A DNA stretch of 64,000 nt from Sandarakinorhabdus sp. AAP62 (lineage in GTDB: Bacteria > Pseudomonadota > Alphaproteobacteria > Sphingomonadales > Sphingomonadaceae), in assembly GCF_000331225.1 (NCBI RefSeq), contig NZ_ANFY01000005.1:186001-250000 (forward strand). The letters run 5' to 3'. The position numbers and the translations under genes are program-made. Below, piece by piece: positions 12,696-30,371 of this stretch; the first letter of the stretch is position 1; each line of letters opens with the position of its first letter. A model generated the notes under the pieces. That model had not been told where the DNA came from and searched no databases. It worked only from the letters and a program-made list of their open reading frames with translations.

Positions 12696-13037
12696 ACACA
12701 CCCCGAAAATTTCTGGCCGGCACCGGCTTTCTGCAACAGCGCAAGCCGGCACCGCACCGGCCGGACCGCATTGGCAGCAGGCGGCAACCTGCAGCGCCAT
12801 AACGGCCGCGACGCGGCATCGCTTGCCGCCGATGTGCCACGAAGCGGCCTCTGAAGCGAGGGGGAATTGTGGCCCGAACGGGACAATCCGCCCGAAAACG
12901 GCTGCGAAATCGGGTGAGAAGGTTGCCGCAAGTAGCGGACACGTGTAGCAAACCGCCTGTTAGGGTTTCTGCTGTATTGCCGTAACAGGGTTGACTTGAT
13001 CTTGCGGCAAGCTGCCGTGGCGGGGGAATGGATCACG
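12696..13037. promoter_or_regulatory. divergent EPS intergenic region
   Basis: This 342-bp non-coding stretch separates the leftward and rightward EPS arms and must hold both promoters. A TTGACT hexamer at 12991-12996 could be a rightward -35 box. A 10-bp inverted repeat TTGCCGCAAG (12923-12932) / CTTGCGGCAA (13001-13010), 68 bp apart, is a candidate regulator site. No confident -10 box is visible. Confidence 0.4.
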
Positions 13038-14405
13038 ATGAACGGTGCAGGTTTGAACGGGACTGACGACGAGATGCGGCAGCGGCCACTTTGGCCCGTG
13101 CTGGCATCGCTGGCGTTGATCGCGTCGCTGGCGGCACCGGCCACCGCCCAGATCAATCCCTATGCCCAGACCGCCAGCGCCGGCGACAATGATGATGATC
13201 CGCTGCGGGCGCCTTCGGCGGTGCCGGGCCTGGCGGGCTACAACCGCGGCCTGGCGCTGACGGCTTCGATTGCAACCCGTTATGAAGACAATCTCCTGCG
13301 CCAGATGGTCAAGGACGACGGCGTGCGCGTTCGACCGCAGGTGAGCGGCAGCTATGGTCTTGGTCTCGGGCGCGGTGGCCTGTTCGTGCAGGGCAATTAT
13401 GGCCGCGACATGATCTATGGCAGTCGGCGCGTGGCAGCATCGGAACGCCTGATGATGGGTGGCGGCCTTGATTTCAGCCTGTCGCGCTGCACCGGCCAGG
13501 TCGGCGGTTCCTGGCGCCGCGGTCTCAGCTTCCTCACCGATGTGTCACAGTTCGGTGGTTTCGAAGTGGAAACGGCAACAGCCGGCTTTGCCGCGCAATG
13601 CCGGCTGGGCGGGGCGCTGAGCATCAACGGTTCGGTGCTGCGTTCGGATTCGACGGTTACGCAGAATGCCGCCGGCCCAAACTCCTCGGCCTTCAACCAG
13701 GAGCGCTGGAGCTATTCGGCAGGCATCGGCTTCGGCAATCCCACGCTGGGTCAGTTCAACCTGGGCGGTTCGATTTCGGATTCGAAGATGCCGGGGCGCC
13801 AGGTGCTGACTCCCACTGGCTTCATGGATGATGGTCTTGACCAGCGCAGCGTGCGGCTTGGCTATTCGCGGCGGTTCGGTTCCAAGATCAATATTTCCGC
13901 TGGCGTGTCCTATCTCGATACCCAGCCCAGCACGACGGTGAATGTGATCTTCGTCGATGGCGTGCCGCAGCTGGTTGATCGGCCCGGGTTCAAGGGGGCC
14001 GGCTATGATGCTGCCATTGATATCGCCTTCTCGCCGCGCCTCAACCTGGGCTTCACGGCCGGGCGCAACAGCAGCGCCAATGGCGTTGTGGGCGCCCAGT
14101 TCACGATTTCGACCTTCTGGGCGGCGCAGATCGATTATCGCCTTGGCTCGCGTTACACATTGTCGACCGGGATCAACCTGCGTGACAGCCAGTTCCGCGG
14201 TGCCTTTGTGTCGAATCTGGACCAGGTACGGCGTCAATCGGATGATTTCACGCGTATCTTCAGCCAGTTTTCAGGACGGCTGGGACGGCGCTTGCGCTTC
14301 TCGGTCGATGTCGCGCACAGCCGGCGCAAGTCGAATCCGGCCGTCCTGAATTTCAACTCGACAGGTGTTGGCCTGTCGCTGGGTTATCAGTTGGGAAGAA
14401 GTTGA
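13038..14405 (+). CDS. EPS-associated outer-membrane beta-barrel protein
   Basis: A 455-aa protein with a signal peptide (core LASLALIASLAAPATAQ, about residues 20-37). A long run of alternating amphipathic strands rich in Gly, Tyr, Phe and Arg ends in SLGYQLGRS, typical of an outer-membrane barrel. It resembles the outer-membrane proteins found beside EpsE/EpsF/exosortase genes and could be the EPS secretion pore or a barrel partner of the export protein. An internal ATG 36 bp downstream, immediately before the hydrophobic core, is an alternative start. It is first in the rightward EPS operon; its stop overlaps the next ATG by one base. Confidence 0.75.
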   Translation: MNGAGLNGTDDEMRQRPLWPVLASLALIASLAAPATAQINPYAQTASAGDNDDDPLRAPSAVPGLAGYNRGLALTASIATRYEDNLLRQMVKDDGVRVRPQVSGSYGLGLGRGGLFVQGNYGRDMIYGSRRVAASERLMMGGGLDFSLSRCTGQVGGSWRRGLSFLTDVSQFGGFEVETATAGFAAQCRLGGALSINGSVLRSDSTVTQNAAGPNSSAFNQERWSYSAGIGFGNPTLGQFNLGGSISDSKMPGRQVLTPTGFMDDGLDQRSVRLGYSRRFGSKINISAGVSYLDTQPSTTVNVIFVDGVPQLVDRPGFKGAGYDAAIDIAFSPRLNLGFTAGRNSSANGVVGAQFTISTFWAAQIDYRLGSRYTLSTGINLRDSQFRGAFVSNLDQVRRQSDDFTRIFSQFSGRLGRRLRFSVDVAHSRRKSNPAVLNFNSTGVGLSLGYQLGRS

Positions 14406-15184
14406 TGATGATGACACGTCTGATGCAGGCAGCCATGGTCTCGGTGCTGTTGTCCGGCGCCGCTGTGGCCCAGAACAATGATTACAAGGGCTATGTGCTC
14501 GGTCCCGACGACAGCGTGCAGGTGATCGTCTACGGCCAGAGCGAGTTCAATGTCACCACCCGAGTGAAGGCAGATGGCTCCATCGTCATGCCGCTGATCG
14601 GCATCGTGAAGGCCAGTGGCGAAACCAATATCACGCTGGCCAAGGTGGTTACCGACAAATTGGTGGCCAGCGGTTATCTGAAGGATCCGCTCGTCAACGT
14701 CGAAGTGGGCAGCTACATCTCCCGCTCGGTCAATATTGCGGGCGCTGTAGGCCAGCCAGGCATCGTCCCGCTGGACCGGCCCTATCACGCACTTGAAGCG
14801 CTGCTCAAGGCCGGCTGGGTGCGTAGCGATGGCGCCAACTATGTCTATCTGCGCCGAGTGGGCCAACCCGAGCGCAAGCTTGAAGTGGAACAACTGGTGC
14901 GCGGCGATGCCAACAGCGATCCGTTGCTGGTGCCCGGTGACACGCTGTTCGTGCCGCCGGCGGAAACCTTCTTCATCTATGGCCAGATCAATGCGCCGGG
15001 CATGAAGGGCATCCTGCCGGGCATGACCATCCGTCAGGCGATTGCGCTTTCGGGCGGCGTGTCGGCGTCGGGCAAGGCGGACAAGGTTGGCCTGGTGCGC
15101 GGTTCAGGCAAGGAAATCGATGCCGATCCGTCCATGAAGGTACAAAATGGCGATGTGATCATCATCAAGGAACGCCTGTTCTGA
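14405..15184 (+). CDS. epsE: polysaccharide export protein (Wza/EpsE-like)
   Basis: A 259-aa periplasmic/outer-membrane export protein. It has a signal peptide, a Poly_export domain (YVLGPDDSVQVIVYGQSEF) and two SLBB-like domains (about residues 105-160 and 180-240). The usual acylated Cys of Wza is absent from the signal region, so outer-membrane insertion may depend on the barrel encoded just upstream. It forms the periplasmic channel for EPS. The start has three consecutive ATG codons; the first is used, overlapping the upstream stop. Confidence 0.88.
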   Translation: MMMTRLMQAAMVSVLLSGAAVAQNNDYKGYVLGPDDSVQVIVYGQSEFNVTTRVKADGSIVMPLIGIVKASGETNITLAKVVTDKLVASGYLKDPLVNVEVGSYISRSVNIAGAVGQPGIVPLDRPYHALEALLKAGWVRSDGANYVYLRRVGQPERKLEVEQLVRGDANSDPLLVPGDTLFVPPAETFFIYGQINAPGMKGILPGMTIRQAIALSGGVSASGKADKVGLVRGSGKEIDADPSMKVQNGDVIIIKERLF

Positions 15185-15256
15185 TCAGGGCATAATTGAA
15201 ATGCGCGTTCTTGCGGTGGGTAATGGGAAAGGGGCCAGGCAAACTGGCATGAGAAA

Positions 15257-16651
15257 ATGAGCATCATTCAGCTTCTGCGTATATTGGTGGCCCGGCGATG
15301 GATCGTCTTTGGCAGCATGATCCTCGCCCTGATTGTGGCAGGAGCAGTGGGCAAGATCCTGCCGGCCCGCTTTCCGGCCACGGCCCGCGTGCTGATGGAC
15401 AATTTCAAGCCTGACCCGGTCACCGGCACCATGATGAATGCGCTGGGCCTGCGCAGCTTCACGCGCACCCAGATGGAGCTGATCAAGGATTATCGCATCG
15501 CGGGTGAAGCTGTGGACAAGCTGGGCCTGACAAGCAATGCCGATCTGCTGGCGCAGTGGCAATCCGCCACCGGCGGCAACGGCGATTTCCGCCGCTGGGT
15601 TGCCGATCGGATCATTGCCAGCACCCGCGTCGATCTCATCGAGAATAGCAACATTCTCGCCATCAATTACGAGGCCAGCAATCCCGAAGTGGCACGGCGC
15701 ACGGCCAACGCCCTGCGTGAGGCCTATATCGAAAACAGCCTGAAGTTCCGTACCGACAGCGCTGGCCGGACCGCCGAATGGTATCGCGAACAAGCCAATC
15801 GCGCCCTGAAGGCGCTGGAAGCCGCCGAATCGGCCAAGACCAAGTTCGAGCAGGAAAACGGCATCGTGATGACCTCGGGCGGCGAAGCCGAAACGGTGAA
15901 GCTGGCCAGTCTGCAGGCCGCGCTGACCGCGGCGCGTAGCAACGAGAGCATGCAGCAGTTCGAGGCGGTCAAGCAGTCCACCACATCGAGCGTGGTCGAT
16001 ACGCTGAAGGTGCAACTGGCCACGCTCAACGACCAGATCGAGATGGCGTCGGAACGTCTGGGCGTGCAGCACCCGACCTATATCGCCATGCTGTCGCGCC
16101 GGCAGCAGCTGGAACGTCAGCTCGGCCGCGAGCAGGCCGCTGCCCGCCAGGCCGGCGCGGCCCAGCTAGGCGCATCGCGCAGCAGCGTTGCCCAGATCGA
16201 AGCAGCCTATGAAGCGCAGCGTGCCAAGGTCTTCTCCATGAAAGAGAAGCTGGACCAGTTGAATCAGCTGGTCAGCGAAGTGGTCCTGCGGCGCGGTCAA
16301 TATGAAGCCGCTGCCAAGCGCACCGCCGATCTGCAGCTGGAATCGAATGTGGCCGACGCCGGCCTCGTCGTGCTGGGCGATGCCACGGTTTCCCAGGATC
16401 CGTCCTTCCCGAACTGGCCGTTGATCATCGGTCTGGCCGTCGGTGCCGGCCTGTCGCTGGGCATCGTTCTTGGGCTGTTCGTCGAACTGGTGAACCGCCG
16501 GGTTCGCGGCGCCGAAGACTTGAGCTATGCGGCCCGCGTTCCGGTGTTTGCCGTCATCGCCGAACGTCGCAAGCCGGAATGGCACCAGATCCTCAAGCGC
16601 ATCCTGGCGCGCGGTAACACCACCGCGTCGGGCATGCAGCCAGCCGAATGA
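15257..16651 (+). CDS. epsF: Wzz/EpsF-like chain-length determinant
   Basis: A 464-aa polysaccharide co-polymerase. It has an N-terminal TM helix (about 16-34), a long periplasmic coiled-coil region (about 50-385) with the heptad-rich segment RALKALEAAESAKTKFEQ, and a C-terminal TM helix (about 392-412) followed by a short cytoplasmic tail. The architecture matches XrtA/XrtV-associated EpsF proteins. It sets EPS chain length together with the cytoplasmic P-loop partner encoded immediately downstream, which it overlaps by 4 bp. The ribosome-binding site is weak (72-bp gap after epsE). Confidence 0.88.
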   Translation: MSIIQLLRILVARRWIVFGSMILALIVAGAVGKILPARFPATARVLMDNFKPDPVTGTMMNALGLRSFTRTQMELIKDYRIAGEAVDKLGLTSNADLLAQWQSATGGNGDFRRWVADRIIASTRVDLIENSNILAINYEASNPEVARRTANALREAYIENSLKFRTDSAGRTAEWYREQANRALKALEAAESAKTKFEQENGIVMTSGGEAETVKLASLQAALTAARSNESMQQFEAVKQSTTSSVVDTLKVQLATLNDQIEMASERLGVQHPTYIAMLSRRQQLERQLGREQAAARQAGAAQLGASRSSVAQIEAAYEAQRAKVFSMKEKLDQLNQLVSEVVLRRGQYEAAAKRTADLQLESNVADAGLVVLGDATVSQDPSFPNWPLIIGLAVGAGLSLGIVLGLFVELVNRRVRGAEDLSYAARVPVFAVIAERRKPEWHQILKRILARGNTTASGMQPAE

Positions 16652-17595
16652 GTAGTGATCCCATGGACAATATCGAAACCGACATCGGCGCCACCGAGGC
16701 CGAAACCGATGGGACCGCCGCCAGCCAGGTCACAGGCAGCACGGACAGCAACGACCGCTATGACGCGCCCATCCGGGATGTGCTCACCCGGCTCGGCTAT
16801 CTTTCGCAGGATCAGGTAGCCAAGGTGCAGGTCCATGCCGCAGAACGCGGCCTGGATTTCGATCAGGCAGCGCTGGAACTGGGCTTCATCACGACCGATG
16901 ATCTGGATCGCGCCCGAGAACAGCTGATAAACAGCCTGGCGTTGCAGAATATCGCCCGCCGTCCGGTGTCGGACGAACTGGTGGTGCTGTCTGATCCTGG
17001 TTCGGTGCGGGCGGAATCGATCCGCATGCTGCGCACATCGGTGATCGCCCAGCATATCAAGAACGGCCGGCGCGGTCTGGCTGTGGTGGCCACCGCCGAT
17101 GGCCATGGTTGTTCGTGGGTCGCCGCCAACCTCGCTGTGGCGCTCAGTCAGGTCGGTTTCAAGATCCTGCTGGTCGATGCCAACATGCGCTCGCCGCGTC
17201 AGGACCAGATCTTTGGCCTCGATCCCAATGCGCCCGGCCTGTCGAGCTTCCTGTCGCTGCAGGTTGCCCGCCCGGAACGCGTGGTGAATGCCAATGTGCT
17301 GCCTGGCCTGGCGCTGATCACGGCCGGCCCGCCGACCAGCCGCCCGCAGGAGTTGCTGTCGGGCAACCGCTTCCGCGACGGCGTCAACACGCTGCTGCGT
17401 GAATATGATCTGGTGATCTTTGACACGCCGGCCGCCAACACCAGCGCCGATGCGCTGAATGTTGGAGCAGGCGCGGCCTATGCCCTCGTGGTCGGTCGCT
17501 CAAATCACAGTTTCTACAAGGACATCAACACCCTGACCGATCAGCTGGCGGCGGCCCGCTGCGCTGTCGTGGGCGCGGTGCTGAACGAGTTCTGA
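16648..17595 (+). CDS. epsG: EpsG/CpsD-like P-loop protein with degenerate Walker A
   Basis: A 315-aa protein. The acidic N-terminus is followed by a GspE-N/MshEN-like domain (about 35-95; VLTRLGYLSQDQVAKVQVHA), then a MinD/BY-kinase-type domain. Walker A' is intact (ILLVDANMRSP), and so is the RPQELL segment. The P-loop reads DGHGCSWVAAN, so the nucleotide-binding lysine position (155) is cysteine. No C-terminal Tyr cluster is present. Family members are autokinases that drive Wzz oligomer cycling. Here ATP hydrolysis is doubtful and the protein may act as a structural partner of the chain-length determinant. Confidence 0.82.
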   Translation: MSSDPMDNIETDIGATEAETDGTAASQVTGSTDSNDRYDAPIRDVLTRLGYLSQDQVAKVQVHAAERGLDFDQAALELGFITTDDLDRAREQLINSLALQNIARRPVSDELVVLSDPGSVRAESIRMLRTSVIAQHIKNGRRGLAVVATADGHGCSWVAANLAVALSQVGFKILLVDANMRSPRQDQIFGLDPNAPGLSSFLSLQVARPERVVNANVLPGLALITAGPPTSRPQELLSGNRFRDGVNTLLREYDLVIFDTPAANTSADALNVGAGAAYALVVGRSNHSFYKDINTLTDQLAAARCAVVGAVLNEF

Positions 17596-18491
17596 TGCCG
17601 GATACGGGGGGAATAGCGCCGGCTGCGGCACCGCCCGCAACCGATTGGCGGGCGGTGCTGCTGGCGCACTGGCCGATGTGGCTAGGCTTGGCAGCGATGG
17701 GCCTGCCGACGTTACTCGCGCTGGCGCAGGGGCCATGGCAGGAAGAGTCCGGCGTGCACGGCATCATCGTGCTGGTCACCGGCCTGTGGCTGGTATGGCG
17801 CCGGCAAGATGAAATCATGGCGGCCCGTCAGGAAGGCAATCCCTTGCTCACAGCGTCCGCCTTTGCCGTCGCCATTCCGCTCTATGTGGCAGGGCGCGCG
17901 TTCGAATTCATCAGCATCGAAGCCGCAGCGCTGCTGCTGGCCATCGTGGCGGTTGCCCACCAATATTGGGGGCTGAAGGTCGCGGCCATGCTGTGGTTCC
18001 CGATCGTCTATCTCGGCTTTGTCGTGCCCATCCCGGGCTGGTTCCTTGATACCATCACCCTGCCGCTCAAGGAGTTTGTCTCCGAACTGGTCACGGGCTC
18101 GCTGGCGGCGGCCGGCTATCCGGTCGGTCGCATGGGTGTCACCCTTTACATTGGTTCCTACCAGCTGCTGGTGGAAGACGCCTGTTCCGGCCTCAATTCG
18201 CTGGTCAGCCTGACCGCGATCGGCTTGTTCTATGTCTATCTGATCCGCGGCTCCAACCCGCTCTATTCGCTCCTGCTGCTGGCCATGGTGATCCCGATCG
18301 CCATTGCCGCCAACTGCGTGCGGGTTGCGGCGTTGGTGCTGATCACCTATCACCTGGGCAACGCCATGGCGCAGGGTTATCTGCACAATTTCGCCGGCAT
18401 GGTCACCTTTGTGTCGGCGCTGCTGTTCATCTTCGCGCTGGACTGGGCGCTCAGCCCGATCCGCCGCCGCCTCGAAGGCAAGGTTGCATGA
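17595..18491 (+). CDS. exosortase, XrtV-type
   Basis: A 298-aa polytopic membrane cysteine transpeptidase-like protein. The predicted catalytic residues are Cys197 (EDACSGLNSL), Arg243 (NCVRVAAL) and His264 (GYLHNFAG), the conserved Cys-Arg-His set of exosortases. Exosortases cleave C-terminal PEP-CTERM-like sorting tags during export of proteins linked to EPS. The V-type label rests on the EpsI gene and on the small partner gene just downstream. No substrate with an obvious C-terminal sorting tag lies in this window. The start overlaps the upstream stop by one base. Confidence 0.87.
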   Translation: MPDTGGIAPAAAPPATDWRAVLLAHWPMWLGLAAMGLPTLLALAQGPWQEESGVHGIIVLVTGLWLVWRRQDEIMAARQEGNPLLTASAFAVAIPLYVAGRAFEFISIEAAALLLAIVAVAHQYWGLKVAAMLWFPIVYLGFVVPIPGWFLDTITLPLKEFVSELVTGSLAAAGYPVGRMGVTLYIGSYQLLVEDACSGLNSLVSLTAIGLFYVYLIRGSNPLYSLLLLAMVIPIAIAANCVRVAALVLITYHLGNAMAQGYLHNFAGMVTFVSALLFIFALDWALSPIRRRLEGKVA

Positions 18492-19186
18492 GCGGGATCA
18501 ATCGCCGTGATGTGCTGCTGGGCGGCGCCTTGCTGGCCGGTGCTGGCGGGGCCGCTGCGCTGGTGCCGCGCGGCCGGCTGGTGCTGATGCCGAAGGGGCA
18601 TGAACTGGAAGCCATCGTGCCCAAGAAGCTGGGCGGCTGGACCTATGTGCCCACCCCTGGCATCGTCATGCCGCGCACCGAAGGCACGCTGTCGGCCAAG
18701 CTGTATGGCGATGTGCTCAGCCGGGTCTATGTGTCGGAATCGCGGCTGCCGGTGATCCTGGTGATGGCTTATGGCCCGGTGCAGAATGATCTGCTGCAAT
18801 TGCACCGTCCAGAGGTGTGCTACACGGCGGTGGGTTTTCAGGTCTCGGGCACCACGTCGGCCCGGCTGCCGCTGGCGGCGGGGGTGGAACTGCCGATCCG
18901 CGAGCTGGTCGCCGAATCCGAACGCCGGATCGAAACCATCACCTACTGGACGCGCGTTGGCGATGATCTGCCCACCAACGGCACCGAACAACGTGTCGCC
19001 AAGCTGAAGCAGCAATGGGCGGGCTATATTGCCGATGGCATATTGGTGCGCTTGAGCTGTGCCGTGCCGCCGGAACCCGGCGTGCGTGACCAGCTGGCAG
19101 AGTTCGCGCGTGAACTGGTGAAAGCTGTGCCGGCGGTTGATCTGCCGGCGCTTGTTGGACGGCCGCTTGCGGCCCAGTTGGCATGA
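18488..19186 (+). CDS. epsI: exosortase-associated protein EpsI
   Basis: A 232-aa protein beginning with a twin-arginine-like hydrophobic leader (INRRDVLLGGALLAGAGG). The EpsI domain follows, with the conserved RPEVCYTAVGF segment and the downstream VAKLKQQWAGYIADG stretch. EpsI occurs fused or adjacent to exosortases and is thought to aid EPS/protein-sorting function in the periplasm; its biochemistry is not established. It overlaps the exosortase gene by 4 bp and closes the rightward operon. Confidence 0.88.
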   Translation: MSGINRRDVLLGGALLAGAGGAAALVPRGRLVLMPKGHELEAIVPKKLGGWTYVPTPGIVMPRTEGTLSAKLYGDVLSRVYVSESRLPVILVMAYGPVQNDLLQLHRPEVCYTAVGFQVSGTTSARLPLAAGVELPIRELVAESERRIETITYWTRVGDDLPTNGTEQRVAKLKQQWAGYIADGILVRLSCAVPPEPGVRDQLAEFARELVKAVPAVDLPALVGRPLAAQLA

Positions 19187-19194
19187 AGCAGCGA

Positions 19195-19452
19195 TCAGCC
19201 CTGGTTGAAGGGCTGCAGCACGCGCCAGATGAAACCGATGGTGGCAATGAACAGCGCCACGGCACCGGCATGCATCAGCATCTCGCCGGACTTCATGGCT
19301 TCATTGCCCAGATAGTTGGTTACGGCACAGCCTACAGCAGCAACCATATATTGCCAGAGATGGTCGCGCGGTTCGCCTTGGCTGCGCTGCAGGAACAGCA
19401 CGATCAGGCCGGCGAAGGTCATTACCGTCAACCAGTCGTATGGCGTTTCCAT
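19195..19452 (-). CDS. small membrane protein, XrtV sorting system accessory type
   Basis: An 85-aa protein starting METPYDWLTVMTFAGLIVLFLQRS, with two or three hydrophobic segments (about 5-19, 33-47, 56-75). It matches my memory of the short accessory proteins annotated beside exosortase V in sphingomonads. It is convergent with epsI (8-bp gap) and divergent from the priming transferase. The Met chosen begins the conserved motif; an upstream in-frame extension is not hydrophobic. Molecular role unknown. Confidence 0.7.
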   Translation of the reverse strand: METPYDWLTVMTFAGLIVLFLQRSQGEPRDHLWQYMVAAVGCAVTNYLGNEAMKSGEMLMHAGAVALFIATIGFIWRVLQPFNQG

Positions 19453-19559
19453 GCAATCAACTCCTTCACTTGCGCCTCTATAGCAATCTGGCAGCGGCTG
19501 GCCAGAATATTTCCGGTTCGTCATGGTTTTTGCCCACCGCTGGGCGGAGGCGCCGTGTC

Positions 19560-21029
19560 GTGAACAGTCACCATCAGATCACCACGGCGACGCCTGCACC
19601 AACCGCTGCCGCTGCTGGTGGGCCGGGTATGCCGCTTGGCCTGGCGATCCTCATTGTGCGCTTGCTGGAATTCATGGCAGTGGGCCTGGCTGGCCTGATG
19701 CTGGTCGAGATCGGACCCACAGATCTGGGCAGCAATGTTGCCATCTATACGCGCGTCACCCTGATCGCCAGCCTGGCCTTTGCCGTTCTGGCCGAAAGCC
19801 TGGGCAGTTACGACATCGAAGCGCAATTCAGCCTGCGGCTGGGCTGGCGCCGGGTTCTGCTGGCGTGGACAATGGCGGCCCTCTTCCTCATCACCATCGG
19901 CTTTCTGCTGAAATCCTCCGAGCAAGTGTCGCGGGCCTGGGCGATCAGCTGGTTCGTTGCCGGCGGCGGTGCCTTGCTGTTCACCCGCATTGCTACCACC
20001 ATGTGGGTGCGTCGCCTCAAGAAGCGTGGCACCTTCAACGAACGCGTCGCCATCTTCGGGGCCGGGCCGCAGGGCGTGCGCTTTGCCGAATATGTGCAGG
20101 CGCATGATCGCCTGACAATCACGCTGGTTGGCATCTTCGATGATCGTCGCCCCGATCGACTGCCCACGGAAGCGGCTGGCGTGCCGGTGCTGGGCAATCT
20201 CACCACGCTGATTGGCATGATCCGCGAAGGCATGATCGATCAGGTGGTGGTGGCGCTGCCATGGGCGGCCGAACGCCGCCTGCAGGACGTGATGGCCAGG
20301 CTGGTGCTGACCCCGGTGAAGGTGCGGCTGGCGCCCGATCTGGTCAGCTTCACCTTTGCGCGCCGACCGGTGGTCATCTTGGGCGACGTTCCGGTGATGA
20401 CCCTGTTCGAACGGCCGATTTCCGGCATGTCGGCGATCGTGAAGACCCTGGAAGACAAGCTGTTGACGGCGCTGATCCTGATCGGCGTGTCGCCCATCAT
20501 GCTGTTGGCGGCGCTGGCTGTCAGGCTGGATTCGCCCGGTCCGATCCTGTTCCGGCAGCCGCGCGAAGGTTTCAACAACCAGAATTTCAACTGCTTCAAG
20601 TTCCGCACCATGTATCATGAGCAGTTGGAGTACAAGAATATCACCCAGGCCAGCCGCGATGATCCGCGCATTACCCGGATCGGGCGTTTCCTGCGGCGCA
20701 CCAGCATCGATGAACTGCCGCAACTGTTCAACGTGCTGCTGGGCGACATGTCGCTGGTGGGGCCGCGCCCGCACGCCGCCTCAACGCGCGCCGGTGGCCG
20801 CCTGTTCTCCGACGTCGTGCAAAGCTATGCCGCCCGCCACAAGGTGAAGCCTGGCATCACCGGCTGGGCGCAAGTGTGCGGCTGGCGTGGCGAGACCGAC
20901 ACCGAAGAGAAATTGATCAAGCGCTTCGAGCACGACCTTTACTATATCGAGAACTGGTCGATCTGGCTTGATCTCTACATTTTGGTGCGCACCGTTGGGG
21001 CCGTGCTGCTGCCCAAGAACGCCTTTTGA
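19560..21029 (+). CDS. polyprenyl-phosphate sugar phosphotransferase (WcaJ/WbaP-like)
   Basis: A 489-aa priming enzyme of EPS synthesis. About four N-terminal TM helices are followed by a CoA-binding-like Rossmann domain ([17 protein letters not shown]), a fifth hydrophobic segment and the catalytic bacterial sugar transferase domain. That domain carries [22 protein letters not shown] and [12 protein letters not shown]. It transfers hexose-1-phosphate to undecaprenyl phosphate at the inner membrane, starting each EPS repeat. The GTG start has GGAGG 9 bp upstream; the upstream in-frame ATG lies in the divergent promoter gap and is rejected. Confidence 0.93.
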
Positions 21030-21152: not shown

Positions 21153-21237
21153 ATTACTCTAACGGCTGCCTCATCAAAGTTTCCTGTCTGTTGGCTCGGT
21201 GCAATCGGGCCTGCGGCATCAGTTGGGCAGAACGAGC

Positions 21238-24200
21238 ATGTACGATCCCGCCGCCGCCACGCGCGCTCCGGTTCCGACCCCCGGCATCAACCCGGTGCGC
21301 AACCGCGCCGATTGGGATGCGATGCGCGCCGAAGTGCTGGCCGATCCCGGCGCGTTCCACGGCAGGATCGCCGCGCGCAACCTGCACTGGCTGGTGGATG
21401 TGGGCGGACGCAAGGCCTGGGCCAGCCGGGGCGAAGATGGCCGCTGGATGGGCTGGGATGCCGAGACTGCGGCGCCGGTGAACGCCGATCTGCCGGCCGA
21501 TTTCGCGCCGTGGGCCCGTGCCTTCAACGCGGATGACGCACCGAACTTCCGCTGGTTCGAAGGCGGCCGCACCAATGCCGCCTTCAACGAGCTGGATCGC
21601 CATGTGCTGGCCGGTCACGGCGCCGAGACCGCCTTCATCTTCGAAGGCGACCGCTGGGATCTGGCCGCCAACAACGGCCGTGGTGCGCCGGTGGATTGCC
21701 TCAGCGTCTCGCGCCGCCAGCTGTTGTTGGAGGCCGCCAAGTGCGCCGTTGCGCTGACCAAGCTGGGGCTGAAGGCGGGTGACCGCATCGCGCTCAACAT
21801 GCCGAACGTGCCGGCCCAGCTGTACTGGACGGAAGGCGCCAAGCGCATCGGCGTCATCTACACGCCGGTGTTCGGCGGCTTTTCCGACAAGACCCTGTCT
21901 GATCGCATCCACGATGCCGGTGCCCGCATCGTCATCACGGCGGACGGCGGCTATCGCAACGCCCAGGTAGTGCCGTTCAAGACGGCCTACACCGATCCGG
22001 CGCTGGACAATTATGTGCCGGTCACGGTCGCGCTGCGCCTGCTGGAAGAGCGGCTGAACGGAGCCGATCTGGGCCTGTCGGCCGACACGCGCACGGCCAT
22101 GGCCGGTATCGTGGCGACGGCGCTGAAGGGCGAAGTCACCGTCGAGCGCGGCGACGTCATGCGCGGCCTTGGCCGGGCGCTGGCGGAACTGGGCAAGGAC
22201 GGCCAAGTGGATGCCGCCCAATCGGCGCGCATCCGTATCGCCATTGCCGAAGCGCTGGTCTCTACCCCGCCGCGCGTCGATGCGGTGATCGTCGCCAACC
22301 ACACGCATGTGCCCGATCTCGTCTGGCGCGACCGCGACGTGTGGAGCCATGATCTCACCAACGCCGCGCTGGCCGACATCCTGGCCGCCGCCGGCCTGCC
22401 CGATGAAGCGGCGCTGCACGCACTGGATGACGAGGCCTTTGTCGCTGCGCTGTGGAAGGCGTCGAAGCCGCTGCCGGTCGATGCCGAATATCCGCTGTTC
22501 TTCATCTACACCTCGGGCTCCACCGGCAAGCCGAAGGGCGTTGTCCATGTCCACGGCGGCTATGCCAGCGGCATCATGGAGACGATGAAGGTCGCCTTCG
22601 ATGCGCGGCCGGGCGACACCATCTTCGTCGTCGCCGATCCGGGCTGGATCACCGGCCAGAGCTACATGATCGCTGCTGCGCTGCTGTCCCGCGTCACCAC
22701 CGTGCTGGCCGAAGGCTCGCCGGTGTTCCCGCACGCCGGCCGCTTTGCCGCGATGATCGAGAACCACAATGTCACCATCTTCAAGGCCGGTGTCACCTTC
22801 CTCAAGGCGGTGATGACCGACCCGCAGAATCTGAAGGACATCCAGGCCTACGACCTGACCAAGCTGCGCGTCGCCACCTTCTGCGCCGAGCCCTGCTCGC
22901 CCCCCGTTCAGGCCTTCGGCATGGCGAATATCACGCCGCAATATATCAACAGCTATTGGGCGACCGAGCATGGCGGCATTGCCTGGACCCATTTCTATGG
23001 CAACGGCGATTTCCCGCTGGCCGCCGACGCGCGCACCTTCCCGCTGCCGTGGATCGTCGGGGACGTGTGGGTGGAAGATGAAGCCGGCGACAAGAACGCC
23101 CGCGTGCTGCTGACCCGCGACGGCACGGACGGCGTCACCTGGCGCAAGGCCGGCAGGCAAGAGAAAGGCGAGATCATCATCGCCGCGCCCTATCCCTATC
23201 TGGCGCGCACCGTGTGGGGCGACAGCGACAATTTCCGGGTCGAGGATGGCAAGGTTGCCGGCAACTGGGCTGGTGATGCCGACCGCTGGCGCGATGGATA
23301 CTGGGGCCGCTGGCAGGGCGTCTGGGCCTATACCCAGGGCGATTTCGCCGTCCAGGGCGATGATGACGGCTTCTCGCTGCATGGCCGTTCGGATGACGTC
23401 ATCAACGTCTCCGGCCACCGCATGGGCACCGAGGAAATCGAAGGCGCCATCCTGCGTGACAAGGCGCTGAACCCGGAAAGCCCTGTCGGCAACGTGCTCG
23501 TGGTCGGTGCGCCGCACCGTGAGAAGGGGCTGACCCCGCTCGCCTTCATCACCCCCGCGCCGGGCCAGGTCATCACCCGCGATGACGAGCGCCGCCTCGC
23601 CGATCTCGTCCGCACCGAAAAGGGCGCGGTGGCGGTGCCGGGTGACTTCATCACGGTCAGCCAGTTCCCGGAAACCCGCAGCGGCAAATATATGCGCCGC
23701 ATGGTGCGCGCGCTGGTGGAGGGCACGCCCATTGGCGACGTGACGACGCTGAAGAACCCCGAAAGCCTCGACGAACTCAAGCGCGTCATCACCGCCTGGG
23801 AGCGCAAGCAGCGCCTGTCCGACGATCAGGACATCTTCGACCGCTATCGCTATTTCCGCATCCAGTACAACACGGTGGCGCCCGGCAAGAAGGTGGCGAC
23901 GGTGTTCATCACCAACCCGCCGGTGAACGCGCTCAACGAACGCGCCATCGATGAACTGGTGATTGTCGTCGAACATCTGTCGCGCCGCGACGATGTCGCC
24001 GCCGTGGTATTCACTGGTGACGGCACGGCGAGCTTCGTCGCCGGCGCCGACATCCGCCAGTTTCTGGAGGAAATCCACACGCTGGAGGAGGCCCGCGTGC
24101 TGCCGGCCAACGCCCAGCTGGCGTTCGGCAAGATCGAGCAGATGGGCAAGCCCTGCGTGGCCGCCATCCAGGGCGTGGCGCTCGGCGGCGGCATGGAGTT

Positions 24201-26730
24201 CGCGCTGGCCTGCCATTATCGCGTGGCGGAATCCCACGCCCGCTTTGGCCAGCCGGAAATCCGCCTGCGCCTGCTGCCCGGCTATGGCGGCACCCAGCGC
24301 CTGCCGCGCCTGCTCACTGATCGGCGCGGGCCGGAAGGCATGCTCGACGCGCTCGACCTGATCCTGGGCGGCCGCAGTGTCGAGGCGTCGGCTGCGCTCG
24401 AAATGGGCGCCATCGATGCCATTGCCGATGGGTCGAACGACGCGCTCAGCCTCGCCCATGCGGCCGTGCGCGAGTTCGTCCGCCTCGGCGACACCAGCCA
24501 TCTCGGCCGCGCCTGGGCCGAACGCCGCAAGGCCGCCAAGAGCGCCTGGCAGCATGAAGGCCATGTCGATCTCGATCACGCGCTGAGCGACGACTTCGTG
24601 CAGCGCATCCTGAAGCAGCTCGATTGGGCCGGCCGCGGCAAGGCGGGGATGCGCGCCATCGACGCCATCCGCACCGGCTGGACCCAGGGCATGGCCGCCG
24701 GCCTCGCCCGCGAAGCCGAATTGTTCGCGCAGGCCGTGGTCGATCCCGATGGCGGCAAGACCGGCATCCGCCTGTTCATGGACAAGAAGGCGCCGCCGCT
24801 GCCCGTCCGCCGCGACGGCGTGCATATCGAGGCCGAGTTCGATGCCAAGGCCAAGCGCCTGGAAGCGGCTGGCGACCTGCTGCCGGTGGGCGCGCCCTTC
24901 TTCCCCGGCGTCACCCCGATCCCCGGCCATCAATATGGCTTCGGCATCGCCCGCAGCCCCGATACCGGTGCGCCGCAGTTCGGCCCGCCCGCCAGCCACG
25001 AGAAGCAGCTGATCGTGCCGACGCCGCAGCCGGAGCCGAACGAGGCGCTGGTGTACATGCTCAGCAGCGAAGTGAACTTCAACGATATCTGGGCCTTGAC
25101 CGGCATCCCCGTCTCCCCATTCGACAATCACGAGGAGGATGTGCAGCTCACCGGTTCCGGTGGTCTGGCGCTGGTCGCAGCCTTGGGCAGCGAAGTGCGC
25201 GGGCAGGGGCGCCTGAAGGTGGGGGACATGGTGGCGGTCTATTCCGGCACCTCGGATCTGCTGTCCCCGCAGGCCGGGCGGGACCCGATGTATGCCGATT
25301 TCGCCATCCAGGGGTACGAGACCAAATCGGGCAGCCACGCGCAGTTCCTCACGGTGCAGGCGCCGCAGCTGCACCCGGTGCCCGGTGACCTGACGCTGGA
25401 ACAGGCCGGCAGCTACATCCTCAACCTCGGCACCATCTGGCGCTGCCTCTATACCACGCTCGAGATCGTCGGCGGCAAGACCATCTTCATCGAAGGGTCC
25501 GCCACCGGCACCGGCCTCGATGCGCTGAAATCGGCCAAGGCCAGCGGCCTCGCCGTCACCGGCCTCGTCTCCAGCCCGGCCCGCGCCGACTTCGTGAAGT
25601 CGAAGGGCGCCGTCGGTGCGCTCGATCGCACCGATCCGCGCTTCAAGGCGCTGTTCACGCCCGTCCCCGATGGCACCAAGGCCGATTGGGCGGCCTGGGA
25701 GCAGGCTGGCGAAGCGCTGGTGACCGAATACAAGGCCATCAATGGCGGCAAGCTGGCGGATTATGCCGTCAGCCACGCCGGCGAAACCGCCTTCCCGCGC
25801 TCGTTCCAGTTGCTGGGCGATGGCGGCGTGCTGGCCTTTTATGGCGCGTCGTCGGGCTATCACCTCAGCTTCATGGGCAAGAAGGGCGGTTCCGATCCCG
25901 TCACCATGCTGGCCCGTGCCGGCGCGCGTGGCGGCGAGGCGGTGCTGATCTTCTACGGCCCCGGCACCACCCAGCTGGCGGACGAGACCGGCCTCGAGAT
26001 GATCGAGGCGGCGCGCGGCCTGGGCTGCCGCATCGTCGTCGTCACCAACACCGATGGCCAGCGCGAGTTCATCCTCAGCCTCGGCTTTGAAGATGCAGTG
26101 GCCGGCGTTGTCAGCCTCGAAGGCATCAAGCGGCGGGAGGGTGCCAATTTCGATTGGCCCGACACCATGCCGCGCCTGCCGGTGGCGCGCGAGGATATCG
26201 AGAATTTCCGCGAGGCCGTGCGCCATTTCCAGGACAAGGTGCTGAAGCCCTTCGGCAACGCCGTCGGCAAGCTGCTGCGTTCGCCCGACAATCCGCGCGG
26301 CAACCCGGATATCGTGCTGGAACGCAGCCAGCAGGACACGCTGGGCGTGACCACGGCGCTGGTGAAGCCGTTCACTGGCCGCGTCGTCTACTGCGAAGAC
26401 ATGGCCGGCCAGCGCTATAACTTCTACGCGCCGCAGGTGTGGACCCGCCAGCGCCGGATCATCATGCCGATGGCGGAGATCCGCGGCACCCACCTGTGCA
26501 ACGCCTATGAAGTCACCCGCATGAACGACATGATCGCGGCCGGCATCCTCGATGTGACCGAGCCGACGGTGGTGCCGTGGGAAGGCCTGCCGGAAGCGCA
26601 CCAGAGCATGTGGGACAACCGCCACACCGGCGCGACCTATATCGTCAATCACGCGCTGCCGGCGATGGGCCTGCGCGGCAAGGATGAACTGTACGAGGCC
26701 TGGGCCTCACTGAAGGGGCAGGGGGAATGA
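21238..26730 (+). CDS. pcs: propionyl-CoA synthase (trifunctional)
   Basis: An 1830-aa fusion converting 3-hydroxypropionate to propionyl-CoA with ATP, CoA and NADPH. Domain 1 (about 1-860) is an acetyl-CoA-synthetase-like ligase with P-loop YTSGSTGKPKG at 424-434, GRSDDVINVSGHRMG and the catalytic Lys817 (TRSGKYMRR). Domain 2 (about 875-1130) is a crotonase with both hydratase glutamates, Glu987 (GGGMEFAL) and Glu1007 (FGQPEIRL). Domain 3 (about 1260-1830) is an MDR enoyl-CoA reductase with VNFNDIW and GSATGTGLDALKSAK. Domain order and length match the Chloroflexus and Erythrobacter enzymes, in which acryloyl-CoA stays enclosed. The ATG at MYDPAA is used; a GTG 39 bp earlier is possible. The stop overlaps the next gene by 4 bp. 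Confidence 0.95.
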   Translation: MYDPAAATRAPVPTPGINPVRNRADWDAMRAEVLADPGAFHGRIAARNLHWLVDVGGRKAWASRGEDGRWMGWDAETAAPVNADLPADFAPWARAFNADDAPNFRWFEGGRTNAAFNELDRHVLAGHGAETAFIFEGDRWDLAANNGRGAPVDCLSVSRRQLLLEAAKCAVALTKLGLKAGDRIALNMPNVPAQLYWTEGAKRIGVIYTPVFGGFSDKTLSDRIHDAGARIVITADGGYRNAQVVPFKTAYTDPALDNYVPVTVALRLLEERLNGADLGLSADTRTAMAGIVATALKGEVTVERGDVMRGLGRALAELGKDGQVDAAQSARIRIAIAEALVSTPPRVDAVIVANHTHVPDLVWRDRDVWSHDLTNAALADILAAAGLPDEAALHALDDEAFVAALWKASKPLPVDAEYPLFFIYTSGSTGKPKGVVHVHGGYASGIMETMKVAFDARPGDTIFVVADPGWITGQSYMIAAALLSRVTTVLAEGSPVFPHAGRFAAMIENHNVTIFKAGVTFLKAVMTDPQNLKDIQAYDLTKLRVATFCAEPCSPPVQAFGMANITPQYINSYWATEHGGIAWTHFYGNGDFPLAADARTFPLPWIVGDVWVEDEAGDKNARVLLTRDGTDGVTWRKAGRQEKGEIIIAAPYPYLARTVWGDSDNFRVEDGKVAGNWAGDADRWRDGYWGRWQGVWAYTQGDFAVQGDDDGFSLHGRSDDVINVSGHRMGTEEIEGAILRDKALNPESPVGNVLVVGAPHREKGLTPLAFITPAPGQVITRDDERRLADLVRTEKGAVAVPGDFITVSQFPETRSGKYMRRMVRALVEGTPIGDVTTLKNPESLDELKRVITAWERKQRLSDDQDIFDRYRYFRIQYNTVAPGKKVATVFITNPPVNALNERAIDELVIVVEHLSRRDDVAAVVFTGDGTASFVAGADIRQFLEEIHTLEEARVLPANAQLAFGKIEQMGKPCVAAIQGVALGGGMEFALACHYRVAESHARFGQPEIRLRLLPGYGGTQRLPRLLTDRRGPEGMLDALDLILGGRSVEASAALEMGAIDAIADGSNDALSLAHAAVREFVRLGDTSHLGRAWAERRKAAKSAWQHEGHVDLDHALSDDFVQRILKQLDWAGRGKAGMRAIDAIRTGWTQGMAAGLAREAELFAQAVVDPDGGKTGIRLFMDKKAPPLPVRRDGVHIEAEFDAKAKRLEAAGDLLPVGAPFFPGVTPIPGHQYGFGIARSPDTGAPQFGPPASHEKQLIVPTPQPEPNEALVYMLSSEVNFNDIWALTGIPVSPFDNHEEDVQLTGSGGLALVAALGSEVRGQGRLKVGDMVAVYSGTSDLLSPQAGRDPMYADFAIQGYETKSGSHAQFLTVQAPQLHPVPGDLTLEQAGSYILNLGTIWRCLYTTLEIVGGKTIFIEGSATGTGLDALKSAKASGLAVTGLVSSPARADFVKSKGAVGALDRTDPRFKALFTPVPDGTKADWAAWEQAGEALVTEYKAINGGKLADYAVSHAGETAFPRSFQLLGDGGVLAFYGASSGYHLSFMGKKGGSDPVTMLARAGARGGEAVLIFYGPGTTQLADETGLEMIEAARGLGCRIVVVTNTDGQREFILSLGFEDAVAGVVSLEGIKRREGANFDWPDTMPRLPVAREDIENFREAVRHFQDKVLKPFGNAVGKLLRSPDNPRGNPDIVLERSQQDTLGVTTALVKPFTGRVVYCEDMAGQRYNFYAPQVWTRQRRIIMPMAEIRGTHLCNAYEVTRMNDMIAAGILDVTEPTVVPWEGLPEAHQSMWDNRHTGATYIVNHALPAMGLRGKDELYEAWASLKGQGE

Positions 26731-29700
26731 ACGCGATGTCGAAGACCAAGGGCGGTGAACCCATGTCCGCGCCGCAGCCCGGCGCATCCGGCCGCCTCGC
26801 CGGCAAGGTGGCCTTGATTACCGGCGCCGCCGGCAATCTGGGCGGCAGCATCGTGCGCCGTTACCTGGCCGAAGGCGCAACCGTGGTGATGAGCGGCCGT
26901 GATGCGGCCCGCACCCAGGCCGCGCTGGATGCCGCCGTGGCCGATGTGGGCGGTACGGCCAGCATCGTCACCATGGATGGTGCCAATATCGAATCCGTGC
27001 GCGCTGGCATCGCCGAAATCGTCGCTCGCCACGGCCGCATCGATATCCTGGTCAACAACGCCGGTTCGGCGGGGCCGAAGCAGGTGCTGGGCGATCTGCC
27101 GCTGCTAACCGAAGAGCTTGAGGGCACGCCCGACAGCGAAACCGTGGGCGACGCCGCCCGCAACATCATGGTGGTGGCCTGGAACCTGGTGCGCGCCGCA
27201 GCGCCGGCAATGGGCGAGGGCGGCAGCATCATCAATGTTTCCACCATCTTCAGCCGCACCGATTATTTCGGCCGCGCGGCCTACACGGTGCCGAAGGCGG
27301 CGCTCAACATCCTTTCCAAGGGGTTGGCGCGCGAGCTCGGCACGCGCGGAATCCGGGTGAACCAGCTCTATCCCGGTCCGATTGCGTCCGAACGCATTCG
27401 CACCGTGTTTGCGGCGATGGACAAGTTGAAGGGCGATGACGCGGGCAGCACCGCCAATCATTTCTTTAACCTGATGGCGTTGGAACGCAGCGTGGGCGAC
27501 GAGGCCAAGGCCAAGACCTTCCCGGTGCCCGCCGATATCGCCAACACCTGCGTGTTCCTGGGGTCCGACGAAAGCGCCGCCTTTGCCGCCCATGATTTCG
27601 AAGTCACCCACGGCATGGCCGTGCCGCTGGAATCGCGCAGCGAATTCCTGCACCGGCCCGATCTGCGCGCCATCGATGGCGATGGCCACGGCATCTTGAT
27701 CAGCGCCGGCAACCAGCTGGACGACACGCTGGCCATGGCCGGCCTGTTCGCCGGGCAGGGGGCCAAGGTGCTGCTGGGCTTCCACGCCCAGGCGGCGCTG
27801 GATGATGCCGCCGAACGGCTGCCCGCCGGCGTGAAGGCGGTGCGCTTCCCGCGCCACGATCATATGGCGATGGATGCCGAACTGGCGCGCTTTACCGCGC
27901 ATGTTGCGCCCATAGATGGTGCCATCATCCTGCCAACGCGCGGGGCCGGCTATTTCACCGGCGATCTGGCGCAGGCCAGTGATGCCGCCGTCGAACGCTT
28001 CGTGGATGACGAACTCGAAGGCGCCATTGCCGTGGCCCGCACGCTCGACCGTTATTGGCAGCAGAGCGATGATCTGCCCGCCGATCCGCGCGTGCTGTTC
28101 ATCACCAATGCTGATGACGGTGCCGGCAATGGCTGGGCCGATGTCGGCCGTGCGGCCATCGAGGAATTGCTGCGGGTGTGGCGCGATGAAGCCCGCGTCG
28201 CCGCCGCGCAGGGCAAGACGCGCCGCCCGGTGTGGGGCAATCAGATCGTGCGCTTTGGCAATGGCGAAGCGGAAAACCGCGATTTTGCCGCTGGCCATGC
28301 CGCGCGCCTGCTGCTCGGCGGTCGCCATATCGAGCCGATCAATCTCTACATCCCCGCCAGCATCAGCCGCGCCACCGGCGCGCGCCGTGCGTTGGCGGGC
28401 ACGGCGGAAAACATCACCGGCCTGCACCTGGGCAAGGTGGCGCTGATCACCGGCGGTTCAGCCGGCATCGGCGGCGCGCTCGCCCGCCTGCTGGCGCTGG
28501 CTGGGGCCAAGGTGATGATGGTCGCCCGCCGCGAATCCGAACTGGATGCCGCGCGCGAACGCATTGTGGGCGAACTGCAGGATATCGGCTTTGCCGGGGT
28601 CGAGCGCCGCGTGCGCACGCTGGCCGGTATCGATGTGGCCGACATGAAGAGCCTGAAGCACGCTGTTGACGAGACGGTGCGCGCCTTTGGCCGCATCGAC
28701 TATTTGATCAACAACGCCGGCGTGTCGGGCGCGGAAGAGATGGCCGTTGACATGGGCGTGGAGAATTTCCGCCACACCCAGTTTGCCAACCTCATCTCCA
28801 ACTATGCCCTGATGCACATGGTGGTGCCGATGATGCGCCGCCAAGGTTCGGGCTATATCCTGAATGTGTCCAGTTACTTCGGTGGTGAGAAGTTTCTCGC
28901 TGTCTCCTACCCCAACCGCACCGATTATGCCGTTTCCAAGTCGGGACAGCGCGCCATGGTCGAATCCATGGCTCGTCACCTCGGCCCGGAAATCCAGATC
29001 AACGCCATTGCGCCCGGCCCGGTGGATGGTGATCGCCTGGCCGGCCTGGGCGGCAAGCCCGGCCTGTTCGAGCGGCGCGGCCGGCTGATCCTGGAGAACA
29101 AGCGGCTCAATGCTGTCCATGCCGCCGTGATCAAGGCGGTACGCGGCGGCGCGCCGGTCGCGCAATTGCTGTCACGCCTTGCCCGCAATGACAGCGTGCA
29201 ATTGAGCCATGACCGTTCCAACCCGCAGCCGATCCGCGACCTGGCCCTGGCCTGCGCCCGCGAAGGGGACGAGGTCTGCTGCTGGGATCGCTTCATCCTC
29301 ACCCCGCCGCTGGCGGCCAAGCTGCTGAAGCGACTGCGGCTGGGCGGCTGGCTGATCGGCACCGACTGGCAGACCCGCGACGCCAATGACTGGCTGCTGC
29401 GCGTGCCACCGGACGATACGCCCTGGCTTCCGCTGGCCCAGATCGGCCGTGAAGCCGCCAAGGTGCGCGGCGGCGTGCTGAGCCAGCTTCATCTGGGCAA
29501 GATGCCCACGGAGACGGAAGTGGCGCAGGCCACGGTGTTCTTCCTGGCTGATCGCGCCGTGTCAGGCGAAACCTTCATGCCGTCGGGAGGTCTCAACGTC
29601 GAACGGTCCAACACCGAACGCGAATTGTTTGGCAGCCCCAAGGCCGAGCGCCTTGCCAAGATGGGCGGCAAGACCGTGTGGCTGGTCGGCGAGCATCTCG

Positions 29701-30371
29701 CTGACTATCTCGGCGCGGCGGCCAGGGGTTTCCTCGATTGCGACGTGGCGCGCGTGGTGCTGATCACGGCCAGCGCGGCCGGTGCCGACGCCATCAAGGG
29801 CCATATCGCCGAGGGCGGCCGTATCGAAACGCAGCTGATCGAAGGCGATATCGAAGCCGCGATGGATCAGGCGCTGGCCACCTGGGGCCACCCCACCACC
29901 ATCGTTTCGACCCCGCTGAAAGCCCTGCCGGACCAGCTGTTCGATGCGGAAAGCCCGCTGGATGGTGACGGCTTTGCCGATGTGGTGGAGCATAATCTGA
30001 CCCATCATTTCCGCATCGCCCGCAAGGTGTCGCTGTTCGACGAATGCCAGCTGGTGCTGGTATCGCCGGATGTGCCGATGGGTGAGGGCGCCAAGGGCGC
30101 CTTCGCACTGGCCAATTTCGTGAAGACGACGCTGCATGCCTTCACGGCGACCATCGCGGTGGAAAATGAGCGGCTGGTGCACGAAGTGGCGGTGAACCAG
30201 ATCAACCTCACCCGCCGCGTGCGCTCCGAGGAGCCGCGCAATGCCGCCGAGCATGAGGAAGAAGTGCGCCGCTTTGCCCGGGCCGTGCTGCTGGCCGGTG
30301 CGCCGCTGCCGGATGCGGAGGACAGCCGTTATCGCAGCCGCATCTATCGCGGAATGTCGCTGACGGTGTAG
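26727..30371 (+). CDS. mcr: bifunctional malonyl-CoA reductase
   Basis: A 1214-aa protein of two SDR-containing halves, matching the roughly 1220-aa Chloroflexus enzyme. The N-half (about 22-560) has the Rossmann motif TGAAGNLGG and catalytic Ser172, Tyr186 and Lys190 (YTVPK). In the family it reduces malonate semialdehyde to 3-hydroxypropionate. The C-half (about 575-1214) has TGGSAGIGG and Tyr734/Lys738 (YAVSK). It reduces malonyl-CoA to malonate semialdehyde. Four NADPH-equivalent electrons are spent in total. Each half also carries a second, degenerate SDR-like lobe. The start overlaps the synthase stop (ATGA), so the two enzymes of consecutive reactions are translationally coupled. A second Met at residue 4 or 13 could be the true start. 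Confidence 0.95.
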   Translation: MNAMSKTKGGEPMSAPQPGASGRLAGKVALITGAAGNLGGSIVRRYLAEGATVVMSGRDAARTQAALDAAVADVGGTASIVTMDGANIESVRAGIAEIVARHGRIDILVNNAGSAGPKQVLGDLPLLTEELEGTPDSETVGDAARNIMVVAWNLVRAAAPAMGEGGSIINVSTIFSRTDYFGRAAYTVPKAALNILSKGLARELGTRGIRVNQLYPGPIASERIRTVFAAMDKLKGDDAGSTANHFFNLMALERSVGDEAKAKTFPVPADIANTCVFLGSDESAAFAAHDFEVTHGMAVPLESRSEFLHRPDLRAIDGDGHGILISAGNQLDDTLAMAGLFAGQGAKVLLGFHAQAALDDAAERLPAGVKAVRFPRHDHMAMDAELARFTAHVAPIDGAIILPTRGAGYFTGDLAQASDAAVERFVDDELEGAIAVARTLDRYWQQSDDLPADPRVLFITNADDGAGNGWADVGRAAIEELLRVWRDEARVAAAQGKTRRPVWGNQIVRFGNGEAENRDFAAGHAARLLLGGRHIEPINLYIPASISRATGARRALAGTAENITGLHLGKVALITGGSAGIGGALARLLALAGAKVMMVARRESELDAARERIVGELQDIGFAGVERRVRTLAGIDVADMKSLKHAVDETVRAFGRIDYLINNAGVSGAEEMAVDMGVENFRHTQFANLISNYALMHMVVPMMRRQGSGYILNVSSYFGGEKFLAVSYPNRTDYAVSKSGQRAMVESMARHLGPEIQINAIAPGPVDGDRLAGLGGKPGLFERRGRLILENKRLNAVHAAVIKAVRGGAPVAQLLSRLARNDSVQLSHDRSNPQPIRDLALACAREGDEVCCWDRFILTPPLAAKLLKRLRLGGWLIGTDWQTRDANDWLLRVPPDDTPWLPLAQIGREAAKVRGGVLSQLHLGKMPTETEVAQATVFFLADRAVSGETFMPSGGLNVERSNTERELFGSPKAERLAKMGGKTVWLVGEHLADYLGAAARGFLDCDVARVVLITASAAGADAIKGHIAEGGRIETQLIEGDIEAAMDQALATWGHPTTIVSTPLKALPDQLFDAESPLDGDGFADVVEHNLTHHFRIARKVSLFDECQLVLVSPDVPMGEGAKGAFALANFVKTTLHAFTATIAVENERLVHEVAVNQINLTRRVRSEEPRNAAEHEEEVRRFARAVLLAGAPLPDAEDSRYRSRIYRGMSLTV

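Follow-up and report, generated by a model that had tools for sequence, protein, structure and literature searches.

Malonyl-CoA reductase (MCR) reduces malonyl-CoA to 3-hydroxypropionate with 2 NADPH, and propionyl-CoA synthase (PCS) converts 3-hydroxypropionate to propionyl-CoA at the expense of 1 ATP (to AMP) and 1 NADPH. Both enzyme steps are also listed in PMC8307300. Among the closest described systems, Porphyrobacter sp. ULC335 is a phototroph reported to have key enzymes of the 3-hydroxypropionate bicycle; its bicycle genes are reported to be raised by day and lowered at night, and the authors propose that it co-assimilates CO2 (PMC10674011). Publications already cover the two enzymes, the fact that aerobic phototrophic sphingomonads have them, and the day-time expression in a relative. 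Here we analyze a pair of genes for PCS and MCR in a 64,000-nucleotide stretch of the Sandarakinorhabdus sp. AAP62 genome (contig NZ_ANFY01000005.1, positions 186,001 to 250,000, or G000:C5:186001-250000; hereafter, the window). We consider it likely that the pair is half of a bicycle that carboxylates acetyl-CoA to succinyl-CoA and serves CO2 co-assimilation, anaplerosis and the disposal of reducing power, favored in the light, and not autotrophy by the full bicycle.

The PCS frame opens at a GTG codon at position 21199 and, counted from the ATG at 21238, encodes 1830 amino acids up to the stop at 26730 (21238-26730, plus strand), with the 3-hydroxypropionate:CoA ligase, 3-hydroxypropionyl-CoA dehydratase and acrylyl-CoA reductase domains in a single chain. 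The gene for the bifunctional MCR, a protein of 1214 amino acids with two SDR halves, follows head to tail on the same strand (26727-30371), its ATG lying inside the PCS stop in a 4-bp ATGA overlap (26727-26730) that recurs with ATG in the same-genus loci L009-L011; the two genes may well be translationally coupled through this overlap. The Pfam domains of PCS follow the order AMP-binding, AMP-binding_C, ECH_1 and ADH_zinc_N, that is, ligase, hydratase and MDR reductase fused in the expected order, and residues 21-1826 align with the solved protein 6eqo (2827 bits), deposited as acetyl-coenzyme A synthetase, which we take to be the PCS of Erythrobacter sp. NAP1. MCR contains two adh_short stretches, aligns with 8hi4 from residue 23 and with 8hjw from residue 20, in both cases up to its last residue, 1214, and its halves match 6k8s (1049 bits) and 6k8v (613 bits), presumably the Porphyrobacter MCR, which has the same architecture.

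The residues that we assume to be catalytic in PCS, namely Lys817 of the ligase and Glu987 and Glu1007 of the hydratase, are identical in 80 of 80 rows (the window plus 79 of the 80 PCS loci introduced below; L093 was not counted, though its PCS frame is intact). Among 69 MCR rows, Tyr186/Lys190 are identical in 68 of the 68, and Tyr734/Lys738 in 67 of the 67, that have letters at these positions. Such agreement with solved enzymes, combined with invariant residues, goes far beyond chance and confirms what a first-pass annotation of the window had described: two giant genes overlapping by 4 bp, with this domain order and these catalytic residues, bearing the names PCS and MCR. Judged by their sequences, the former should convert 3-hydroxypropionate to propionyl-CoA and the latter should be the NADPH-dependent enzyme that produces 3-hydroxypropionate from malonyl-CoA. 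An open frame of 1832 amino acids lies antisense to PCS (21154-26652, minus strand) and is probably a shadow of the GC-rich codon composition.

The nearest named relatives of this PCS, according to the scan of loci and the PCS tree, are those of Sandarakinorhabdus oryzae (95% identity) and S. rubra (94%). The Erythrobacter sp. NAP1 pair (L063), cited in the first-pass annotation as a close homolog, shares the domain order and residues, with a PCS 68% identical to that of the window and, directly downstream, an MCR 59% identical to it, the longest frame of which starts at TTG and overlaps the PCS stop by 4 bp; NAP1 differs in its placement in the PCS tree, where it falls on a different branch within the sphingomonad group. 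The Chloroflexus bicycle resembles the system in the window's genome in its PCS (about 59% identity) and in the presence of methylmalonyl-CoA mutase (MCM), whereas its Mcl-Mch-Mct-Smt cluster (L137) was not found in the stretches of the window's genome that were compared and, unlike in the window, the Chloroflexota loci L107, L110 and L111 have no MCR in the 6 kb next to PCS.

The genome that contains the window (3.13 Mb in 22 contigs, rated 100% complete) encodes PufL, PufM, BchX, BchY, BchZ, BchC and CrtD, each above the curated cut-off, and thus carries genes for a type II reaction center and bacteriochlorophyll; by kinship, the host is probably an aerobic anoxygenic phototroph. Within the family, PCS (threshold E<=1e-150) was detected in 17 of 199 sampled genomes, with an MCR frame following in all 17 loci, and the reaction-center family Photo_RC was found above the cut-off in 34 (one further match was weak), corresponding to 34 of the 187 near-complete genomes (>=90% complete, <=5% contaminated). 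All 15 near-complete genomes with PCS, out of 187, also have Photo_RC (hypergeometric p 3.6e-13); when the incomplete genomes are included, this is the case for 15 of the 17 PCS-positive genomes among 199 (p 1.5e-11). Counted by genus, the 7 PCS-positive genera all fall within the 20 Photo_RC-positive genera of 96 (p 6.5e-6), and addition of an eighth, the sole genome of which is 67% complete, makes this 7 of 8 (p 4.5e-5).

The association extends across phyla. A scan with the PCS alignment, one genome per species, gave 400 loci, the best 80 of which were retained; these belong to Sphingomonadales, other Alphaproteobacteria, Betaproteobacteria, Gammaproteobacteria, Gemmatimonadota, Chloroflexota and a single member of the Bacillota, Aneurinibacillus danicus. 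MCR lies directly downstream of PCS in 68 of the 80. The 12 loci without an adjacent MCR comprise 8 in which the contig ends within 1.1 kb and 4 with room for the gene (three Chloroflexota and Aneurinibacillus). Fifty of the 80 PCS-positive genomes, for which completeness is not given, were screened for Photo_RC, RuBisCO, Mct and MCM. Photo_RC was detected in 47 of the 50, a set that covers Alpha-, Beta- and Gammaproteobacteria, Gemmatimonadota, Chloroflexota and Bacillota, and MCM family matches (E<=1e-100) were detected in 49 of 51 genomes (these 50 plus that of the window). Of the 50, 8 have a match to the RuBisCO large-chain domain, and in 4 of these the match is strong (E<1e-100). A separate observation concerns A. 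danicus, which has a full-length PCS frame (L094:2225-7669) with no Photo_RC match in the genome and no MCR in the 3.2 kb downstream, that is, a PCS outside phototrophy.

In the proposed route, MCR would act before PCS, converting malonyl-CoA to 3-hydroxypropionate and on to propionyl-CoA and, together with the acetyl-CoA carboxylase of the cell, propionyl-CoA carboxylase and MCM, acetyl-CoA plus 2 bicarbonate would yield succinyl-CoA in a linear sequence that includes two biotin carboxylations. The window's genome encodes MCM, which scores above the cut-off, and a carboxyltransferase that is closest to the beta subunit of propionyl-CoA carboxylase (PccB; 855 bits to 3n6r), and these two exit enzymes lend support to the suggestion of the first-pass annotation that acetyl-CoA carbon may be channeled through malonyl-CoA to propionyl-CoA with incorporation of CO2. 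The succinyl-CoA output would refill the tricarboxylic acid (TCA) cycle and use up reducing power and, in a respiring phototroph, ATP made in the light could pay for the route. Given the type II reaction center and the probable aerobic anoxygenic phototrophy, CO2 co-assimilation, anaplerosis and a redox sink are the most likely functions. This assignment draws on the genes, the residues, the exit enzymes and the co-occurrence with reaction centers, and would entail catalysis by both proteins, flux in the direction of succinyl-CoA and dependence on light.

Several observations weigh against this assignment. The co-occurrence is a correlation inflated by shared descent, with p values that ignore deeper ancestry and treat genera as independent. 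Two of the 17 PCS-positive genomes of the family (67% and 88% complete) and three of the 50 genomes screened across phyla (a Sphingomonas metagenome-assembled genome (MAG), a 2.0-Mb Steroidobacteraceae MAG and A. danicus) lack a Photo_RC match. Conversely, 19 of the 34 Photo_RC-positive near-complete genomes of the family are without PCS at the threshold used and just 15 have it, so that phototrophy does not require PCS. MCM matches are missing in 2 of the 51 genomes (G240 and G241), and methylmalonyl-CoA epimerase was not found in the window's genome, where two small open reading frames near MCM match no family and the enzyme was not sought elsewhere. The PCS-MCR pair is located outside the photosynthesis gene cluster (contig C5 versus C7), and the box TGTN12ACA, which we take to be the PpsR-type consensus, has no copy upstream of the window's PCS and occurs in 3 of 76 loci of the relatives, with about 2.7 expected; in view of this lack of enrichment, regulation through a PpsR-type box upstream of PCS was rejected.

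The first-pass annotation had offered the processing of 3-hydroxypropionate or acrylate as an alternative, and PCS might indeed mainly assimilate exogenous or internal supplies of these compounds, with MCR as a secondary source of 3-hydroxypropionate. The PCS of A. danicus, with neither MCR nearby nor a Photo_RC match, implies that this enzyme can have a use of its own; however, the overlap of the two genes in the window and the position of MCR directly downstream of PCS in most of the loci, with truncated contigs accounting for 8 of the 12 exceptions, count against this alternative, and we consider it unlikely. The pair could also supply propionyl-CoA or methylmalonyl-CoA for biosynthesis, such as that of odd-chain lipids or polyhydroxyalkanoate, instead of feeding the TCA cycle. 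This is chemically possible, and genes for FabH and PlsX are located within 4 kb, though on the opposite strand; the presence of the exit enzymes to succinyl-CoA here and of MCM in nearly all of the PCS-positive genomes screened points the other way without excluding biosynthetic use, which we regard as very improbable for the main role.

The two remaining alternatives assign the pair to acetate assimilation or to autotrophic growth. Crotonyl-CoA carboxylase/reductase (CCR; TIGR01751) was found in 0 of the 199 genomes of the family, that of the window included, with 8 candidates scored in each genome listed; thus, the ethylmalonyl-CoA pathway seems not to be available and was rejected, which would leave room for PCS-MCR to replace the glyoxylate shunt as the main route of acetate assimilation. 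The shunt is retained, however: in the window's genome isocitrate lyase scores 1062 bits (NF005074) and malate synthase A 745 bits, each above its cut-off, and an isocitrate lyase family match is present in all 17 PCS-positive genomes of the family, so that, as far as a Pfam match tells, PCS is no stand-in for a missing shunt. Replacement of the shunt was accordingly rejected, and we view this role of the pair as quite improbable. In favor of a full bicycle with autotrophic growth, the contig that carries PCS-MCR also encodes, side by side (G000:C5:38373-40384, equivalent to L125:8374-10385), proteins similar to Mct (47% identity to Chloroflexus Mct) and Meh (44%), and a CitE-like protein is encoded elsewhere in the genome. 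The Mct-like protein, however, scores 390 bits to TIGR04253 against a cut-off of 725, and the pair sits among acyl-CoA dehydrogenases, thiolases and a CaiB-type transferase, with no match to Chloroflexus-type Mcl or Mch in the 18 kb read around it; perhaps, and this is a guess, the cluster is involved in the catabolism of a branched dicarboxylic acid. Similar arrangements, with Mct-like (39-44%) and Meh-like (36-44%) proteins within a few kb of each other, are present in NAP1 (L126) and three other sphingomonad genomes (L127, L138, L139). The HpcH/HpaI family is represented in this complete genome by two identified members, an HpaI-like aldolase and the CitE-like protein; the latter falls short of all the NCBIfam cut-offs listed (citE, 168 against 443 bits; RipC, 139 against 375), is closest among solved structures to 1sgj, followed by the malyl-CoA lyases 5ugr and 4l9y, and shares 31% identity with part of Chloroflexus Mcl. 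Hence no convincing malyl-CoA/beta-methylmalyl-CoA/citramalyl-CoA lyase (Mcl) was found in the window's genome, although, judged by sequence, the CitE-like protein could have a promiscuous lyase activity. In the three stretches of this genome that were compared, no Mch match was detected and the Smt-like CoA-transferases are distant (<=34%), neither protein having been sought genome-wide. With no convincing Mcl and an Mct-like protein far below the cut-off, the full autotrophic bicycle was rejected as the leading explanation, and we consider it highly improbable. The search beyond the window for other bicycle enzymes, to which the first-pass annotation had pointed, thus yielded MCM and PccB and neither a convincing Mcl nor, in the two frames near MCM, an epimerase, and its caution that no full cycle is demonstrated stands after this partial search, in which CCR was not found and only the CitE-like and HpaI-like members of HpcH/HpaI turned up. 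The gene content found supports the linear route from acetyl-CoA to succinyl-CoA; a second, glyoxylate-assimilating cycle is not demonstrated by it.

In other lineages, PCS-MCR and the genes for the second half of the bicycle are found together. In four betaproteobacterial loci (L060, L068, L081, L103) and one from Gemmatimonadota (L102), the order smt1-smt2-Mct-Mcl-Mch directly precedes PCS-MCR, the second-half genes being 67-81% identical to the best-matching Chloroflexus protein, and L058 shows the tail of the same order, with the rest cut off by the contig end. Like these operons, the window has PCS followed by MCR, but it has no smt1-smt2-Mct-Mcl-Mch beside the pair. The five loci encompass nearly the entire bicycle-specific gene set in one cluster, with a divergent Meh where it was read, whereas in Chloroflexus islandicus PCS (L111) and the second-half cluster (L137) are on separate contigs. 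In two other Gemmatimonadota genomes (L131, L132), the second-half cluster is on a different contig from PCS, and second-half genes are absent from the available flanks of all other PCS loci among the 80 (about 6 kb upstream is available in 59 of the 80, with the genes present in 5 of the 59). The bicycle in Burkholderiales and Gemmatimonadota has already been reported by Garritano et al. 2022 (PMC9802188), and complete bicycles in the betaproteobacterial and Gemmatimonadota groups are not claimed as new here. TIGR04253 gave matches above the cut-off in 4 of the 51 genomes, all from Chloroflexota, of 528-710 bits in 9 more (Betaproteobacteria, Gemmatimonadota and Rhodopila) and of 291-390 bits in 15 sphingomonads; in the remaining 23, the Gammaproteobacteria tested among them, no match was as strong as E 1e-60.

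Quick LG+G4 trees, which contain several long branches, were built from the complete rows of PCS (77 rows) and MCR (63 rows). In the PCS tree, the sphingomonad proteins form one group that adjoins the betaproteobacterial group and includes Aerophototrophica and a MAG labeled Phyllobacteriaceae, and the Gemmatimonadota rows appear in more than one place, some on long branches; these placements suggest transfer between phototrophs. The MCR tree likewise separates three sets, each of which forms one side of a branch: the betaproteobacterial rows, those from Gammaproteobacteria, Gemmatimonas and Rhodopila, and the sphingomonad rows. Presence of the second half requires 4 label changes on the PCS tree, a number from which nothing is drawn, with labels set by hand, untested loci scored as lacking and L110 assumed to be positive.

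The immediate surroundings of the pair show no link to the pathway, and a pathway-related neighborhood was rejected. Just upstream of PCS lies an exopolysaccharide export-type cluster (12996-21029) that encodes EpsE/F/G-like proteins, a V-type EpsI exosortase-associated protein and a WcaJ-type glucose phosphotransferase; downstream of the pair are genes for a ParA-like protein, IHF-alpha, FabH and PlsX. Part of this context is common to 12 of the 80 loci, from Sandarakinorhabdus- and Polymorphobacter-like relatives; beyond these, the NAP1 locus gave a single weak match to FabH. A plasmid origin of MCR was rejected as well, with 0 of 3681 matching plasmid records covering 80% of the query.

The type II reaction center, the retained glyoxylate shunt and the tracking of reaction-center genes by PCS-MCR all go beyond the first-pass annotation. 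Aerobic phototrophs in blooms are said to appear to use the bicycle, though incompletely (PMC11089705), and predicted photosynthesis is noted for Burkholderiales genomes (PMC9802188), so that parts of the link between PCS and phototrophy have already been voiced; in the open-licence literature, outside which most subscription papers fall, we found no publication in which PCS-MCR as such is said to track type II reaction centers across phyla. Tentatively, and somewhat short of considering it probable, we propose that PCS-MCR is a portable half of the bicycle that has spread and been kept almost only with type II reaction centers, that at least two groups, the sphingomonads and the Gammaproteobacteria, have it without the second half, and that it would act there as a redox valve, powered by light and fixing CO2, between acetyl-CoA and succinyl-CoA in non-autotrophs that mostly lack RuBisCO.

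These observations suggest that the bicycle travels as separable halves. An overlapping gene pair with a defined chemical outcome that co-occurs with reaction centers across phyla also offers a direct test of the extent to which CO2 is used by aerobic anoxygenic phototrophs.

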